From: a virus
IMG/VR virus record: IMGVR_UViG_3300009537_000094
Coordinates: 1 to 32,453 of that record
Direction: 5' to 3' (one strand)
DNA length: 32,453 bases
Positions 11,912 through 31,673 of the stretch are shown in pieces. A program made the translations under genes and the position numbers. The notes below the pieces were generated by a model that was not told where the DNA came from, made no database searches, and worked only from the letters and a program-made list of their open reading frames with translations. The first letter of the stretch is position 1, and every line of letters begins with the position of its first letter.

Positions 11912-12987
11912 TTAGCTTGTTGCAGTACGAACACTGACACCCATGGATTCACGATTTGTTATCACACCAGAAAGCTGGTGAACAACAACCGGAGTGGAGA
12001 GTCTCGTGCGTGCGAGCCGTTCAATAGTAGGTTCCTTTTGAACAGCAACGGCAACAGATTCTCTGTGCCCGAGGAAGTTTAAACGAGCCGAGGAAGCTGT
12101 GTCGATTAGCGGACTAATCACCACAGGAATTCCATAGATATCGGGAAGCGGCATTTTAATACCACCACCGGACATTTGACCCGTAAGATTGGCGTCATTG
12201 TACACGTCAATCTTCTTGAGTTTCGCCCAATCCAGAGGATGGAAAAACCAAGTAACATTATTCGGATTAGCTACAGATACGCTGGCTTCAAGCAATTTTT
12301 GGACCGCAGATGTAAGAAGATCCTCATCGGGTTGATCCGTTGAGCTGCCGACATTATTAGTCGTAAAATTGCCAGTAGTCCATAGGGCCGCAATCGCATC
12401 ATCCAGATCTTCTGATAATTGACGAGCAAATGTCGCGGGGAAATCCCGTGTAGCATCAATTAGAGCCTGGATATTGGCGCGATCAACAACGTCTATGGCG
12501 ATATGACGCCATCTCGATACAGTGAGCTGTGCCTCCGTGGGAGTAACAGCGCTATTGGTAATTGCACCAGTAGCAGCGGTTACATCCTGCACAGTCCCTT
12601 CTGCCATTGTCGGAATATGGAGCAAATCACCTTTTGCTTGGATATTCCCAGTAACTTCCAGGAATCGTGGTCGAATCTTCTCGGATTCAATCAACGCCTC
12701 TAGAAGTTGTGGACGCCATAATTCCTGAATTACAACATCTAATTCAGTAGCATCTATTTCATTCTTTTTGTTACTACTCTATTTTCCTAGAGCGTCTTAC
12801 CATTTCTGGCAAGCTCCATTACTTGAATTAGCAATGGTTCGGACTGTCGCTTAACCCGTCTTTGAGTTCCAGGACGCTCAGTCTCTGCCCCTGCCGGATG
12901 TAAATTACATCTGCTTGGGTCGGGTTGCCATCTCAGGGTTTCCCGTTATTCAGTCCCGGTTTTACATGACCAATGAAATTTAGCCAT
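11912..12987 (-). CDS. Major capsid protein, gene interrupted by a group I intron
   Basis: The main exon is open from the codon just after a TAG at 12781 to 11912, about 288 codons. It begins SSNKKNEIDATELDVVIQEL, an N-terminus typical of HK97-fold coats (DATELDVVIQELW...LIESEKI), with a capsid-like body (MAEGTVQDV, HIAIDVVDRANIQ, FFHPLDWAKLKK, LTNRESMGV-like end). No ATG, GTG or TTG precedes the conserved N-terminus; the first usable in-frame start, TTG 12694, would delete it. Upstream, ATG GCT AAA TTT CAT at 12987-12973 gives a start, and a group I intron lies between. A frame-keeping join is 12987..12973 to 12778..11912 (about 293 residues). The precise splice sites are not proven. The gene follows the scaffold gene, as expected. 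Confidence 0.8.
12779..12972 (-). ncRNA. ORF-less group I self-splicing intron in the major capsid gene
   Basis: Reading the minus strand, the conserved series of group I introns is present in order. P3 pairs CCGGGAC (12959-12953) with GTCCTGG (12875-12869). The P4-P5 core is ACGGGAAACC ... ATGGCAACCCGACCCAAGC. A P6-type hairpin is GATGT/ACATC. The P7 strand is GCAGAGACT (12888-12880) and its partner AGTCC (12845-12841). P8 is AACTC/GGGTT, with J8/7 AAGCGAC. P9 is CCATTGCT/AGTAATGG, and a second hairpin is TTGCCA-GAAA-TGGTAA. The core reads much like the 205-nt Azoarcus tRNA intron. There is no homing endonuclease. A plausible P1 pairs TTTCAT with GTAAAA, placing a U-G at CAT. The ends given are the frame-compatible choice and could be off by a few bases. 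Confidence 0.85.
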
Positions 12988-13002
12988 GATTTAACTACCG
13001 TG

Positions 13003-13815
13003 TTATTTAGTTATTATCCTTCCCTCTCTTACGACCTTCTCCATTTCCATAATTCTTTTCTTTCTTTCAGGAGTTCCTTCCGCGGCGCCACGTATATGCG
13101 CCCGTATTTCCTCCCTGGTCCATTGCTGCTTAGAGCCTCCGCTTGAGGATGCCGAAGGTGACACCCCGGAAGCCCTAGAGCTTGAAGTTGCTGATTGTCC
13201 AGCCCCCGCGCCATTAGAGATACCTTTAGACGCTAACCAGCGCCTATTGGCCTCTTCTACGGCTAATTGCGGGTCTGCATCGAATACTCTAAGAAGGCGT
13301 TGATCGCCTTTAATAAGAGCACCGACTTCATTCAAGCCATTTGGATCTTTTTGGAAATGGCTTTGGGATAGGAGCCATTTTTCGGCCTCATTCACCTCAG
13401 AAAACAATTTCTGCTGTGAAGCGAAAGCATTTAATTCCTCTCTAACAACGCTTCTAACATCATTAAAGCTGCTTACGCTCGGTTTGGATATATCATCACC
13501 CGTGGACACCAACGAGTCCTGAACATCCTTTTTCGTCTGATTAAGAGACTCCTCCAATTCTGCAATTCTCCGGTTTGAGGCATCAATTTGCGCTTTGAAA
13601 TCCCCGGTTTCAGAACGAAGATTTCTTCTATCTTCCCGCAAATTGGCAACCTCCCGAAGAATTCCCTTGGGGGGAACCATCTTAACAGGCTCTTGATTGG
13701 CCTTTTGCGGAGCAGAATCGACCGTCTGACCCGTGGCTTTCTGACTATTTCCAGGGGCCGAACCCTGCGCGGCGTCAGAAGAAGAACCGCTTACGGCTGT
13801 TTTTTCTTCGGGCAT
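13003..13815 (-). CDS. Capsid scaffolding protein
   Basis: The protein has 270 residues and lies immediately upstream of the capsid gene. It has an acidic, low-complexity N-terminus, a central coiled coil (about residues 52-105, LREDRRNLRSETGDFKAQID), a Ser/Gly/Ala linker near 205-230 and a basic helical C-terminus (ERKKRIMEMEKVVREG). This is the standard build of phage scaffold proteins, whose basic C-terminus binds the coat. The ribosome site GGGAG lies 7 bases before the ATG. A strong terminator-like hairpin lies upstream, suggesting that scaffold and capsid are controlled as a separate unit. Confidence 0.75.
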   Translation of the reverse strand: MPEEKTAVSGSSSDAAQGSAPGNSQKATGQTVDSAPQKANQEPVKMVPPKGILREVANLREDRRNLRSETGDFKAQIDASNRRIAELEESLNQTKKDVQDSLVSTGDDISKPSVSSFNDVRSVVREELNAFASQQKLFSEVNEAEKWLLSQSHFQKDPNGLNEVGALIKGDQRLLRVFDADPQLAVEEANRRWLASKGISNGAGAGQSATSSSRASGVSPSASSSGGSKQQWTREEIRAHIRGAAEGTPERKKRIMEMEKVVREGRIITK

Positions 13816-28125: not shown

Positions 28126-28404
28126 ATGGGGAATGATATTGAATTTAAATCAAAAATAAAGCAGAAAGATATTAATCAAAACAGGGTATTACTCGGACTT
28201 AATCCAATGTTCGCGGGAATGGTTTTATTAATTTTAATTTCAATACCGGTTTTTGTTTTAGTATTTATCCACAAAACAAATGATATTTATAATAGATTAT
28301 CTGAAATGTCTAAAGTCCAGAATAATATTATCGAATCAAATAAGGTAATGGTTAAAAATCATGATGAATTAACCGGGATTTTATTTGGAATGGATGAGAA
28401 ATGA
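28126..28404 (+). CDS. Small membrane protein (92 aa)
   Basis: A polar N-terminus of about 28 residues, one membrane segment (MFAGMVLLILISIPVFVLVF) and a helical C-terminal tail (IYNRLSEMSKVQNNIIESNK). AGAGGGAAG lies just upstream of the ATG. The stop overlaps the start of the RNA ligase gene (ATGA). The layout fits a one-span membrane anchor with a coiled coil outside, but no family is recognised. Confidence 0.65.
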   Translation: MGNDIEFKSKIKQKDINQNRVLLGLNPMFAGMVLLILISIPVFVLVFIHKTNDIYNRLSEMSKVQNNIIESNKVMVKNHDELTGILFGMDEK

Positions 28405-29054
28405 AACAGTATCATAAAATTCAATCTGTTTTTAAGAGAGATAAAAAAGGAAGAATGCTGTTTGGGGAATATTCTGATCCTGTTTTTGAATATCTTAAAG
28501 ATAATGATTGGGTGTTTACGGAAAAGGTTGATGGAACAAATATCCGCATAATGTGGGACGGTAATAATGTCACGTTTGGAGGTAGAACGGATAATGCGAT
28601 GATTCCATCATTCCTGGTCAATCGTCTTTCGGAATTGTTTTCCACGACGACAAAAAAATTATTATTTAAGAGTACTTTTCCGGAAGGAGCATGCTTCCAT
28701 GGCGAAGGATATGGTGCGAAGATCCAAAAGGGCGGAGGAAATTACAAATCAGATGGTCAAGACTTTGTTTTGTTTGATATTAAGGTTGGTGATTGGTGGT
28801 TGAAACGCCCTGATGTTGAGGCAATAGCCAAATCATTTAAAATTGATATTGTACCTATTATATCTGATTCCGGAACACTGTATGATATGGTTAATATGTG
28901 TAAAAGGGGAATAATTTCTTCTTGGGGAAATTTTCCGGCAGAGGGAATTGTGGCAAAACCAAAAATAGAGTTACAAACAAGGAGCGGAGATCGAGTTATT
29001 GCAAAAATCAAGTCAAAGGATTTTATAAATACTCCGTTTCCTGTGGAGGCCTAA
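28401..29054 (+). CDS. ATP-dependent RNA ligase (Rnl2-like, compact)
   Basis: 217 residues with the nucleotidyltransferase motifs in order. Motif I is EKVDGTNIRI (residues 41-50, Lys42 being the AMP acceptor). Motif III is CFHGEGYGAKIQKGG, motif IIIa FVLFDIKVGDWWL, motif IV EGIVAKP and motif V VIAKIKSKDF. The enzyme seals RNA ends via a lysyl-AMP intermediate. Phages use such ligases to repair host-cleaved tRNAs or to seal their own RNA. There is no C-terminal domain, and I see no partner kinase/phosphatase in this window. Confidence 0.85.
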   Translation: MKQYHKIQSVFKRDKKGRMLFGEYSDPVFEYLKDNDWVFTEKVDGTNIRIMWDGNNVTFGGRTDNAMIPSFLVNRLSELFSTTTKKLLFKSTFPEGACFHGEGYGAKIQKGGGNYKSDGQDFVLFDIKVGDWWLKRPDVEAIAKSFKIDIVPIISDSGTLYDMVNMCKRGIISSWGNFPAEGIVAKPKIELQTRSGDRVIAKIKSKDFINTPFPVEA

Positions 29055-29457: not shown

Positions 29458-29771
29458 TGCAAATACAACAGGGTGATGTGAATATAGAATCAGTAAATGA
29501 AATTCCACAAGGAGCAAAAAAAGTAAACCCGACTAAAAGAGGTTATATATTAGCTGAAGGAGAAGCGACTGGTCATGCCCATAGAATAGAGGATGTGGAA
29601 GGTGTTGATATGTATGAATCCAATGGTATGTTTTATTTTAAGGTTTCGCGTCGAGTTCAATTAATGCATGAGGAACATAATGTAATATCCATAAATCCGG
29701 GAATTTATAAAAGCTGGGGAGTTCTTGAATATGATCCTTTTGAGGAAGAGATTAATCGTGTCCAAGATTGA
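29458..29771 (+). CDS. Partner protein of DUF6745-type gene
   Basis: 104 residues from ATG 29458 (MQIQQGDVNIESVNEIPQGA), with AAGGAG nine bases upstream. The core GEATGHAHRIEDVEGVDMYE and RRVQLMHEEHNVISINPGIY recalls short proteins that precede DUF6745-domain genes in many bacterial and phage genomes. The two genes overlap by 14 bases here, so their products are likely made together. The His-rich motifs (GHAHRI, HEEH) could bind metal. The biochemical role of the pair is unknown to me. Confidence 0.7.
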
Positions 29772-31023
29772 AAAACTTACTAAAGAGCAGGAGGCGCGTT
29801 TTCCTGAGTTTATAGATAAATGGATGCGAATTGGTTTAAGCACAGATCCAATTAATAAGGAGAAAGCGAAATATGGAATATACCTGGCTTATAAGATTGC
29901 GAATTTGGGTAGACCGAAGATTGTTTTTTGCACTTCACCATTAGCCCAGGGGTTAATTATATATTTTTGTTTAACTCTTAAAAAGGATTCCGTGGGGGCT
30001 TCCGTGTTGGATTCCGTGAGGGATTCCGTGTGGGATTCCGTGGGGGATTCCGTGGGGGCTTCCGTGTTGGATTCCGTGAGGGATTCCGTGAGGGATTCCG
30101 TGGGGGATTCCGTGAGGGATTCCGTGATGGATTCCGTGAGGGCTTCCGTGAGGGCTTCCGTGATGGATTCCGTGAGGGATTCCGTGATGGATTCCGTGAG
30201 GGCTTCCGTGAGGGCTTCCGTGTTGGCTTCCGTGAGGGATTCCGTGTGGGATTCCGTGAGGGCTTCCGTGTGGGATTCCGTGGGGGATTCCGTGGGGGCT
30301 TCCGTGTGGGATTCCGTGGGGGCTTCCGTGATGGATTCCGTGAGGGATTCCGTGATGGATTCCGTGGGGGCTTCCGTGTGGGCTTCCGTGTGGGCTTCCG
30401 TGTGGGCTTCCGTGTATGGGCAACACGATGCCTGGTGGCTCAGTTTTTATGATTATTTTTGTGAGGTTTGTGGGCTAAAAAAACAAACAGAAAAATTGGC
30501 TGGATTATGGATAATTTCTAAAAATGCGGGGTGGGCTGCTCCCCATGAAAAAATATGTTGGGTGTCTGATAGACATAATGTTTGTAGATTAAATTCTAAT
30601 GGTAAAATTCATTCAGAAAAAGGGCCAGCCATTGCATACCCAGATGGTTTTGAAATATACGGTCTAAATGGTGTTAGAGTTCCGAAATGGCTAGTCATGA
30701 CACCTGATGAGAAAATTGATTCTAGAAAAATTTTAGAAGAAAAAAATGTTGAAATTAGGAGAGAGATAATGCGTAAGATTGGACCTGAGAGAATTTCCAT
30801 TAAACTGGGAGCAAAGTGTATCAATAAAGTTGGAGATTATGAACTTTTAGATATACCCATCGGTTCAGGCAGAACAAATCCATATTTAAAAATGAGAAAT
30901 CCGAGTACAGCTACATGGCATCTGGAATGCGTACCAAAGGACATAAAAAATGTCGAGCAGGCTGTGAATTGGCGGGGAAAGGGTGATAAAAATAAACCAT
31001 GGAATCCCGAAATATTAACCTAG
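29758..31023 (+). CDS. DUF6745-type protein with 36-unit DSVx repeat insert
   Basis: 421 residues from GTG 29758, which has GAGGAAGAG upstream and overlaps the partner gene; an in-frame ATG at 29725 lies deep inside that gene. The N-terminus (TKEQEARFPEFIDKWMRIGL, VFCTSPLAQG) and C-terminus (AGWAAPHEKICWVSDRHN, EKGPAIAYPDGFEIYGLNGV) match DUF6745. Between them, residues 77-220 are 36 four-residue units of the form (D/A)SVx with x = R, G, W, M, L or Y. The array could form a long extended or helical spacer. The family's biochemical function is not known to me. Confidence 0.8.
   Translation: MSKIEKLTKEQEARFPEFIDKWMRIGLSTDPINKEKAKYGIYLAYKIANLGRPKIVFCTSPLAQGLIIYFCLTLKKDSVGASVLDSVRDSVWDSVGDSVGASVLDSVRDSVRDSVGDSVRDSVMDSVRASVRASVMDSVRDSVMDSVRASVRASVLASVRDSVWDSVRASVWDSVGDSVGASVWDSVGASVMDSVRDSVMDSVGASVWASVWASVWASVYGQHDAWWLSFYDYFCEVCGLKKQTEKLAGLWIISKNAGWAAPHEKICWVSDRHNVCRLNSNGKIHSEKGPAIAYPDGFEIYGLNGVRVPKWLVMTPDEKIDSRKILEEKNVEIRREIMRKIGPERISIKLGAKCINKVGDYELLDIPIGSGRTNPYLKMRNPSTATWHLECVPKDIKNVEQAVNWRGKGDKNKPWNPEILT
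29986..30417 (+). repeat. 36 x 12-bp tandem array coding (D/A)SVx
   Basis: 36 in-phase units of G(A/C)TTCCGTGNNG. Bases TTCCGTG are fixed in all units. Position 2 toggles A/C (22 Asp, 14 Ala). The fourth codon varies as AGG (12), GGG (8), TGG (7), ATG (5), TTG (3) and a final TAT (1). No synonymous change occurs at Ser or Val, so the array is young or maintained at DNA level. Lack of stops makes several frames open on both strands; those are shadows. Confidence 0.95.
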
Positions 31024-31087: not shown

Positions 31088-31116
31088 TTGACAAGTGACA
31101 ATTAATGTGCTATACA
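31088..31116 (+). promoter_or_regulatory. Strong sigma-70-type promoter for the accessory block
   Basis: TTGACA (31088-31093) and TATACA (31111-31116) with a 17-base spacer. It sits in the only sizeable gap between the DUF6745 gene and the pentapeptide gene and should drive the pentapeptide, HTH and 32071 genes. Its presence suggests that this block is expressed on its own schedule rather than only by readthrough. Confidence 0.75.
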
Positions 31117-31145
31117 GTAGTATGACTATAATTCACGGGGGGGAT

Positions 31146-31673
31146 ATGAAAAAAGAAATTAAATCACGATTCAGTGGGAGTGTGCTGTTTTCTGGTGAAT
31201 ACAGTTCCCTAAAAATTGCTCTGGAGTCTGCCGTTAAATTGAAAACAGATCTACGGGGCGCGGATCTGAGGGGTGCAAATCTGCGAGGTGTATATCTGAG
31301 AGGTGTAAAAGGAATAAATAAATATTTATGCAATCCACTTTTTGGGCTGTTCGATCAACCAGGAAAAATCAGAGCATATAAATTAGTTAATGAAAAATTG
31401 AAGGGCATATATAATGGTTGTCTTAAATACGAAATTGGAAAAACTATTTCGGTTGAAAAATACGACACAAATGAAAATAACGAATGTGGTGAGGGCATTA
31501 ATTTAGCTACGTTGGATTGGTGTATTCGTGAATGGAAAAGGGGATATAAAATAATAATTTGTGAATTTAAATCTCAGGATATTGAGGCTATCCCAATTGC
31601 CACAGATGGCGAATTCCGTGTCAAAAAATGCAAAGTGATTGGTGAAAAAGATTTAACAACTATAGGTCTGTAA
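31146..31673 (+). CDS. Pentapeptide-repeat protein
   Basis: 175 residues from ATG 31146, chosen because a G-rich ribosome site (ACGGGGGG) lies just upstream. After a short beta N-terminus (RFSGSVLFSGEYSSLKIALE) come about four pentapeptide repeats near residues 38-57 (DLRGADLRGANLRGVYLRGV), which make a short right-handed beta-helix. A C-terminal domain of about 120 residues follows (GEGINLATLDWCIREWKRGY, then DIEAIPIATDGEFRVKKC). The architecture is common in phage genomes. Pentapeptide proteins can mimic DNA or bind gyrase, but this one has too few repeats to say that. Confidence 0.75.
   Translation: MKKEIKSRFSGSVLFSGEYSSLKIALESAVKLKTDLRGADLRGANLRGVYLRGVKGINKYLCNPLFGLFDQPGKIRAYKLVNEKLKGIYNGCLKYEIGKTISVEKYDTNENNECGEGINLATLDWCIREWKRGYKIIICEFKSQDIEAIPIATDGEFRVKKCKVIGEKDLTTIGL

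Follow-up and report, generated by a model that had tools for sequence, protein, structure and literature searches.

The window, a viral contig of 32,453 nucleotides (32.5 kb) from a single environmental IMG/VR record, carries a podovirus-like late operon on its minus strand, with genes for the large terminase, a portal or head-tail protein, a protein in the scaffold position, the major capsid protein (MCP), and structural and internal virion proteins. The MCP frame (11912-12757) is open and intact and matched phrog_267 (E = 7e-15), PF25209 (E = 4e-10) and the MCP structure PDB 8e16 (E = 7e-7), all three matches beginning at the N-terminal residues of the frame. No in-frame ATG, GTG or TTG lies upstream of this conserved N terminus, the first in-frame start being a TTG at 12694, 21 codons inside the homologous region. 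An ATGGCT is found at 12987-12982, 15 nt past the stop codon of the upstream gene, and is separated from the MCP frame by a group I core. The apparent lack of a start codon and the upstream ATG GCT had both been pointed out in an original prediction, which read the interval as an ORF-less group I intron.

Searches of IMG/VR with the MCP and with the terminase brought up no close relatives, and a tblastn search of phages with the MCP and portal proteins returned nothing at 1e-5; at E <= 5 it gave only weak cyanophage MCP matches and one Enterobacter phage match. On these comparisons, the viral lineage is an isolated one, without a close IMG/VR relative (MCP, terminase) or GenBank phage relative (MCP, portal). 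We recovered no close relative lacking the intron; none of the sequences retrieved exceeded 26% identity to the MCP. Elsewhere in this small phage, the plus strand, opposite to the late operon, encodes an RNA ligase domain (PF09414, 8e-17) at 28401-29054, and a DUF6745 protein (4e-20; 29725-31023, plus strand) adjoins a pentapeptide-repeat protein (31095-31673, plus strand).

At the gathering cutoff, Rfam returned nothing in the whole 32.5-kb window. The search of the interval with the Rfam group I model that had been proposed gave Intron_gpI as the sole match in the 401-nt stretch from 12650 to 13050 (12796-12991, minus strand; 21.7 bits, E = 0.002), but this score lies under the RF00028 gathering threshold of 50 bits, which is a search threshold and not a biological defining feature. 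Since true relatives of the element also fall below this cutoff (L008, 36.2 bits; L014, 30.0 bits; and L011), the low score reflects the general model and not the element. We built a covariance model, R1, and an alignment, A1, from the cores of 23 relatives, with the window left out of both. R1 matched 12841-12960 on the minus strand (82.8 bits, E = 6.5e-20), the only match in the window at E <= 10, which places the element in the phage intron lineage marked by the J8/7 sequence AAGCGA.

Table 1. Positions of the predicted intron, its structural elements and the flanking exons and gene in the window
Feature	Position	Strand	Basis
Upstream gene, scaffold by position only; ends 15 nt before MCP start	13003..13815	-	order as in Saffermanviridae
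Coding part of exon 1, ATG GCT (Met-Ala), ending in the U that pairs with the IGS G	12982..12987	-	sequence, spacing
Predicted group I intron, no ORF, 218 nt	12981..12764	-	R1 match, P1/P10 splice-site analysis, fold
P1, AUGGCU^AA (AUGGCUAA) pairs with UUGGUCAU, includes start codon; IGS GGUCAU 12971-12966	12966..12987	-	fold, spacing
P10 intron side AUUUCAUU, partner 3' exon AAUGAAAU (12763-12756), 8 Watson-Crick pairs	12972..12979	-	P10 scan
P3 5' strand CCGGGAC, partner GUCCUGG 12875-12869	12953..12959	-	alignment
P4 (CGGG/CCCG) and P5 (CC/GG)	12921..12945	-	alignment, R1, fold
P6 (CCC/GGG) and P6a hairpin	12888..12919	-	alignment, fold
P7 5' strand GACUG, partner CAGUC 12846-12842, guanosine site	12879..12883	-	alignment
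P8 hairpin AACUC AAAGAC GGGUU	12853..12868	-	alignment, fold
J8/7 AAGCGA, lineage signature	12847..12852	-	pattern scan, alignment
P9 hairpin	12816..12837	-	fold
P9.1 hairpin CUUGCCA-GAAA-UGGUAAG, GAAA loop	12796..12813	-	sequence, relatives, fold
P9.2 hairpin CUCUA...UAGAG	12777..12792	-	fold
3' splice-site motif AGUAACAAAAAG, omega-G = 12764	12764..12775	-	motif common to relatives, P10
Exon 2, MCP body	11912..12763	-	phrog_267, PF25209, PDB 8e16

The conserved core (P3-P8 and P4-P6 with P7) is present in the correct order, and the succession of elements from P3 to P9, together with the GAAA-capped hairpin, is as originally described (Table 1). A thermodynamic fold (z = -4.15; none of 200 shuffles equally stable) drew P1, P4, P5, P6, P8, P9, P9.1 and P9.2, and a sequence within P9.1, CAGAAATG, is common to the window and its relatives. 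In an alignment of 18 sequences that included the window, standard base pairs occupied 95.6% of pair cells versus 77% in shuffles, and pairing fell to 36 to 44% when partners were slid by one to three columns. Two-sided changes were seen in 17 of 25 pairs, a level reached by none of 500 shuffles, with strong covariation in P3, P4, P6, P7 and P8. The clearest case was P3, in which all seven pairs form and six of the seven show compensatory change across the 18 introns (CCGGGAC/GUCCUGG in the window, UCCCUUC/GAAGGGA in L008 and CUUCUCC/GGAGAAG in L009); the window's own P3 and P6 (CCC/GGG) are both maintained through compensatory changes. Most phage introns belong to subgroup IA, which is marked by P7.1/P7.2 between P7 and the 3' strand of P3. 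These helices are absent here, where only 3 nt (AGC) separate P7 from P3', which argues against subgroup IA.

The ends of the intron were located from P1, P10 and the 3' motif. A U-G pair in P1 sets U12982 opposite G12971, 22 nt from the putative 5' splice site to P3 and 5 nt from the end of the guide to P3; most lineage members in which P1 could be resolved have 19 to 24 and 4 to 6 nt, respectively. The U-G pair thus points to a 5' splice site after codon 2. Of the Gs downstream, only five are in the right frame to be candidates. From four of these the frame stays open to the MCP, and G12764 is the only one of the five with a P10, of 8 Watson-Crick pairs; elsewhere in the window, a P10 of at least 7 pairs occurs at just 1 of 6,729 Gs. 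In addition, the last 12 nt of the intron (AGTAACAAAAAG) agree with the intron ends of L008 (AGTAACAAAATTG), L009 (AGTAACAAATTG) and L010 (AGTAACAGATTG); for L010, no 5' splice site satisfying P1 was found. The P10 and the family-wide AGTAACA...G motif together place the 3' site at 12764, so that the U-G pair of P1, an omega-G at the 3' end and P10 are all found at the predicted boundaries. These boundaries differ from those first put forward, namely, an intron of about 195 nt with its 5' site after codon 5 (ATGGCTAAATTTCAT) and its 3' end near 12779. G12779 is indeed a candidate end in frame, but a P10 there would have just one pair and the position falls inside the predicted P9.2 hairpin, and the codon 5 site offers no U-G P1 and a spacing to P3 outside the family norm. 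We regard the shorter intron as the least probable of the alternatives that we weighed. Nor is the element exceptionally small, as had been thought: the same procedure gave 201 nt for L008, about 204 nt for L009 and 216 nt for L041, and the introns of Jug-phages average about 206 nt (PMC12363816).

Taken together, the R1 match, covariation, P1 and P10 sustain the reading that an ORF-less group I intron interrupts the MCP gene close to its 5' end. It is very probable, as judged from sequence and structural modeling, that a complete intron, predicted to be self-splicing, lies on the minus strand between MCP codons 2 and 3. As the original prediction had said, it encodes no homing endonuclease, there being no ORF of useful length within its 218 nt.

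The predicted splice (ATGGCT^AATGAA; the caret marks the junction) puts ATGGCT in frame with a bona fide MCP, the in-frame product being MA^NEIDATELDVVIQELWRP... and the protein read from the joined exons starting MANEIDATELDVVIQELWRPQ. The predicted N terminus of the spliced MCP is MANEIDATEL... (MANEIDATELDVVIQ), or ANEIDATEL... with the Met removed. Among the MCP relatives found, L029 is the nearest (26% identity); its exons read as the N terminus MAFSSPTDAYTASDLAAMIP^EVW, to which that of the window, MANEIDATELDVVIQELW, is comparable. Read from the AUG, the unspliced RNA gives 13 codons and then a stop (MAKFHWSCKTGTE-stop). The claim that no capsid is made unless splicing works stood to this extent: a complete MCP N terminus is impossible from unspliced RNA with a standard start codon. 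If the region were instead a structured 5' leader with no intron, the MCP would have to start, unspliced, at TTG 12694, ATA 12757 or ATT 12730. The MCP frame is open from just past the TAG in P9.2 and AGAGGCG precedes TTG 12694, as such a leader would allow, but a start at this TTG would drop the conserved E-[LIV]-W region of relatives L029 and L079, and a leader accounts neither for the covarying catalytic core nor for P1, P10 or the conservation of the 3' splice motif; we consider it highly improbable. Slightly less remote, although still very improbable, is a degenerate intron that has lost splicing and leaves the virus with a defective capsid gene. Activity is beyond what a predicted structure can demonstrate, and the virus, represented by one environmental contig, may not be viable, but all core elements are intact and paired, P10 and the reading frame have been preserved and the MCP frame is itself open and intact.

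The relatives of the predicted intron were collected by exact patterns. A first pattern gave no match; scans seeded with the core common to the window and an Exiguobacterium phage intron (L002) yielded four intron relatives and then 70 viral loci with the P7-P3-P8-J8/7-P7' signature. Rfam returned nothing on L002, probably because an HNH gene splits its core. L006, L007, L012 and L013 were set aside as chance pattern matches, as were the Alcanivorax loci L017 to L020 and L022 (L020 and L022 on likeness of position and organism), and blast matches to Vibrio phage ICP1, a 33-nt match in the tape measure gene, were taken as chance. The MCPs are too divergent for an alignment-based scan.

When 20 downstream ORFs of lineage members were scanned singly, 16 were MCPs of several families, 1 was a tape measure protein, 1 was a ribonucleotide reductase and 2 received no assignment. 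By a redundant count of all 56 downstream ORFs, 14 of which are close relatives of each other, 14 matched phrog_9953 and 13 matched phrog_1357, both MCP families. Comparison introns with the usual J8/7 (AAGATA) gave 1 MCP and 4 RNA polymerase beta genes among 19 downstream ORFs. The compact J8/7-AAGCGA lineage (L008 to L088) is thus concentrated in phage MCP genes of several PHROG families (16/20 versus 1/19), in a collection that, being assembled with exact patterns, favors similar cores and may give a skewed count of genes. As far as these sequences indicate, the lineage is widespread and mobile in phages, mostly in MCP and other late genes. At seven loci (L049, L037, L057, L015, L064, L034 and L074), two to five lineage introns lie within a few kilobases, apparently in one gene. 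In L034 and L040, whose MCPs belong to the window's PHROG, the intron follows about codon 6 (MANTIV^ and MGNTVV^), so start-proximal insertion into MCP genes recurs; codon 2 was seen only in the window. Several lineage members carry homing endonucleases, L079 and L031 encoding LAGLIDADG proteins, and the window intron probably arrived by homing, its endonuclease gene having been lost or never carried.

Two GenBank phages resemble the window in that an essential gene is split by an intron of the same lineage, their records showing split coding sequences and no intron annotation: Podoviridae sp. ctn9Y15 (MW202674, L122; P22-type coat gene, R1 97.6 bits) and Roseobacter phage CRP-118 (OR420741, L120; ribonucleotide reductase gene, R1 89.3 bits). 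Their introns lie mid-gene, whereas that of the window lies at codon 2. The unannotated introns occupy the gaps of the split genes at 1191-2706 of MW202674, where a spurious "hypothetical protein" has been called inside the intron, and at 520-2593 of OR420741. Streptococcus thermophilus phage SW13 (MH892362, L121; 989-1272) has terL as two coding sequences with a short gap, the 3' part of which matches the lineage 3' end; R1 scored it at just 12.5 bits.

Introns of this kind are already known, both in MCP genes (PMC3706429, PMC7886860) and as ORF-less phage introns of about 206 nt (PMC12363816). The group I-type MCP intron of mycobacteriophage LittleE (Cluster J), the splicing of which was shown by RT-PCR and the protein N terminus, likewise has an exon ending in U and an intron ending in G; it differs in its 819-bp length, its endonuclease ORF on the opposite strand and its location away from the start codon (PMC3706429). 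In crAss-like phages of the Delta and Zeta groups, group I introns also interrupt MCP genes, some of which hold several, although these phages are unrelated and the introns were identified mainly through endonuclease domains (PMC7886860). Jug-phage introns, 37 of 76 of which were shown to be spliced in metatranscriptomes, share the compact ORF-less size class, but the phages are huge and the introns are reported in terL and nrdD (PMC12363816). We met no description of the J8/7-AAGCGA lineage; our coverage of the literature was incomplete, so novelty is not proved. What is unusual, on the predicted structure, is the position, with an exon 1 of two codons and a start codon paired inside P1.

In the established group I mechanism, guanosine at P7 attacks the 5' site and the freed exon then attacks the 3' site. 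Here, the intron would fold within the late polycistronic RNA, its internal guide pairing with the start region AUGGCU to form P1. Exogenous guanosine at P7 would attack after U12982, and the freed exon 1 would attack after omega-G 12764 with P10 assisting, joining AUGGCU to AAUGAAAUAGAUGCU... for a protein that begins MANEIDATELDVV.... The full MCP would require this splicing, before which the start codon would be paired in P1, an 8-bp helix. Because exon 1 has only two codons and its start codon is paired in P1, initiation and splicing would compete for one helix. ATG 12987 is preceded by a weak Shine-Dalgarno sequence (-3.0 kcal/mol versus a random median of -2.7), such that coupling of translation to the preceding gene is possible.

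In the Clostridioides difficile c-di-GMP riboswitch-intron, too, it depends on splicing whether translation start signals are accessible; that intron has an aptamer and alternative 5' sites (PMC3984707), neither of them seen in the window intron. With that precedent, and with a start codon that splicing would free directly from P1, a ligand or host factor might decide splicing and hence capsid synthesis. We consider such a riboswitch-ribozyme very unlikely: no Rfam aptamer was found in the window, just 15 nt separate the upstream stop from the start codon, and in size the intron does not exceed relatives that look unregulated. We also think it doubtful, although less so, that the intron is kept as a gate, with capsid protein started only on spliced RNA, and not as a neutral passenger. 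If it were a gate, the timing of capsid synthesis would be set by the folding of the ribozyme and by ribosomes that terminate at the upstream gene, 15 nt away. Host conditions acting on RNA folding might, as first proposed, govern virion formation as a possible consequence of the intron.

A capsid gene that looks startless to gene callers would, with a 218-nt ribozyme taken out, prove to be intact, and the general Rfam model at its standard cutoff misses many members of the J8/7-AAGCGA phage lineage. With the lineage so concentrated in MCP genes, one may ask which gene sites are favored by homing introns. In-frame stops within introns and competition with translation have been discussed (PMC3984707), and splicing in T4 relies on the upstream exon being translated (cited in PMC11878797 and PMC3984707). 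Given that dependence, a start codon inside P1 with almost no upstream exon would offer a clean natural test of the competition between translation and group I splicing.
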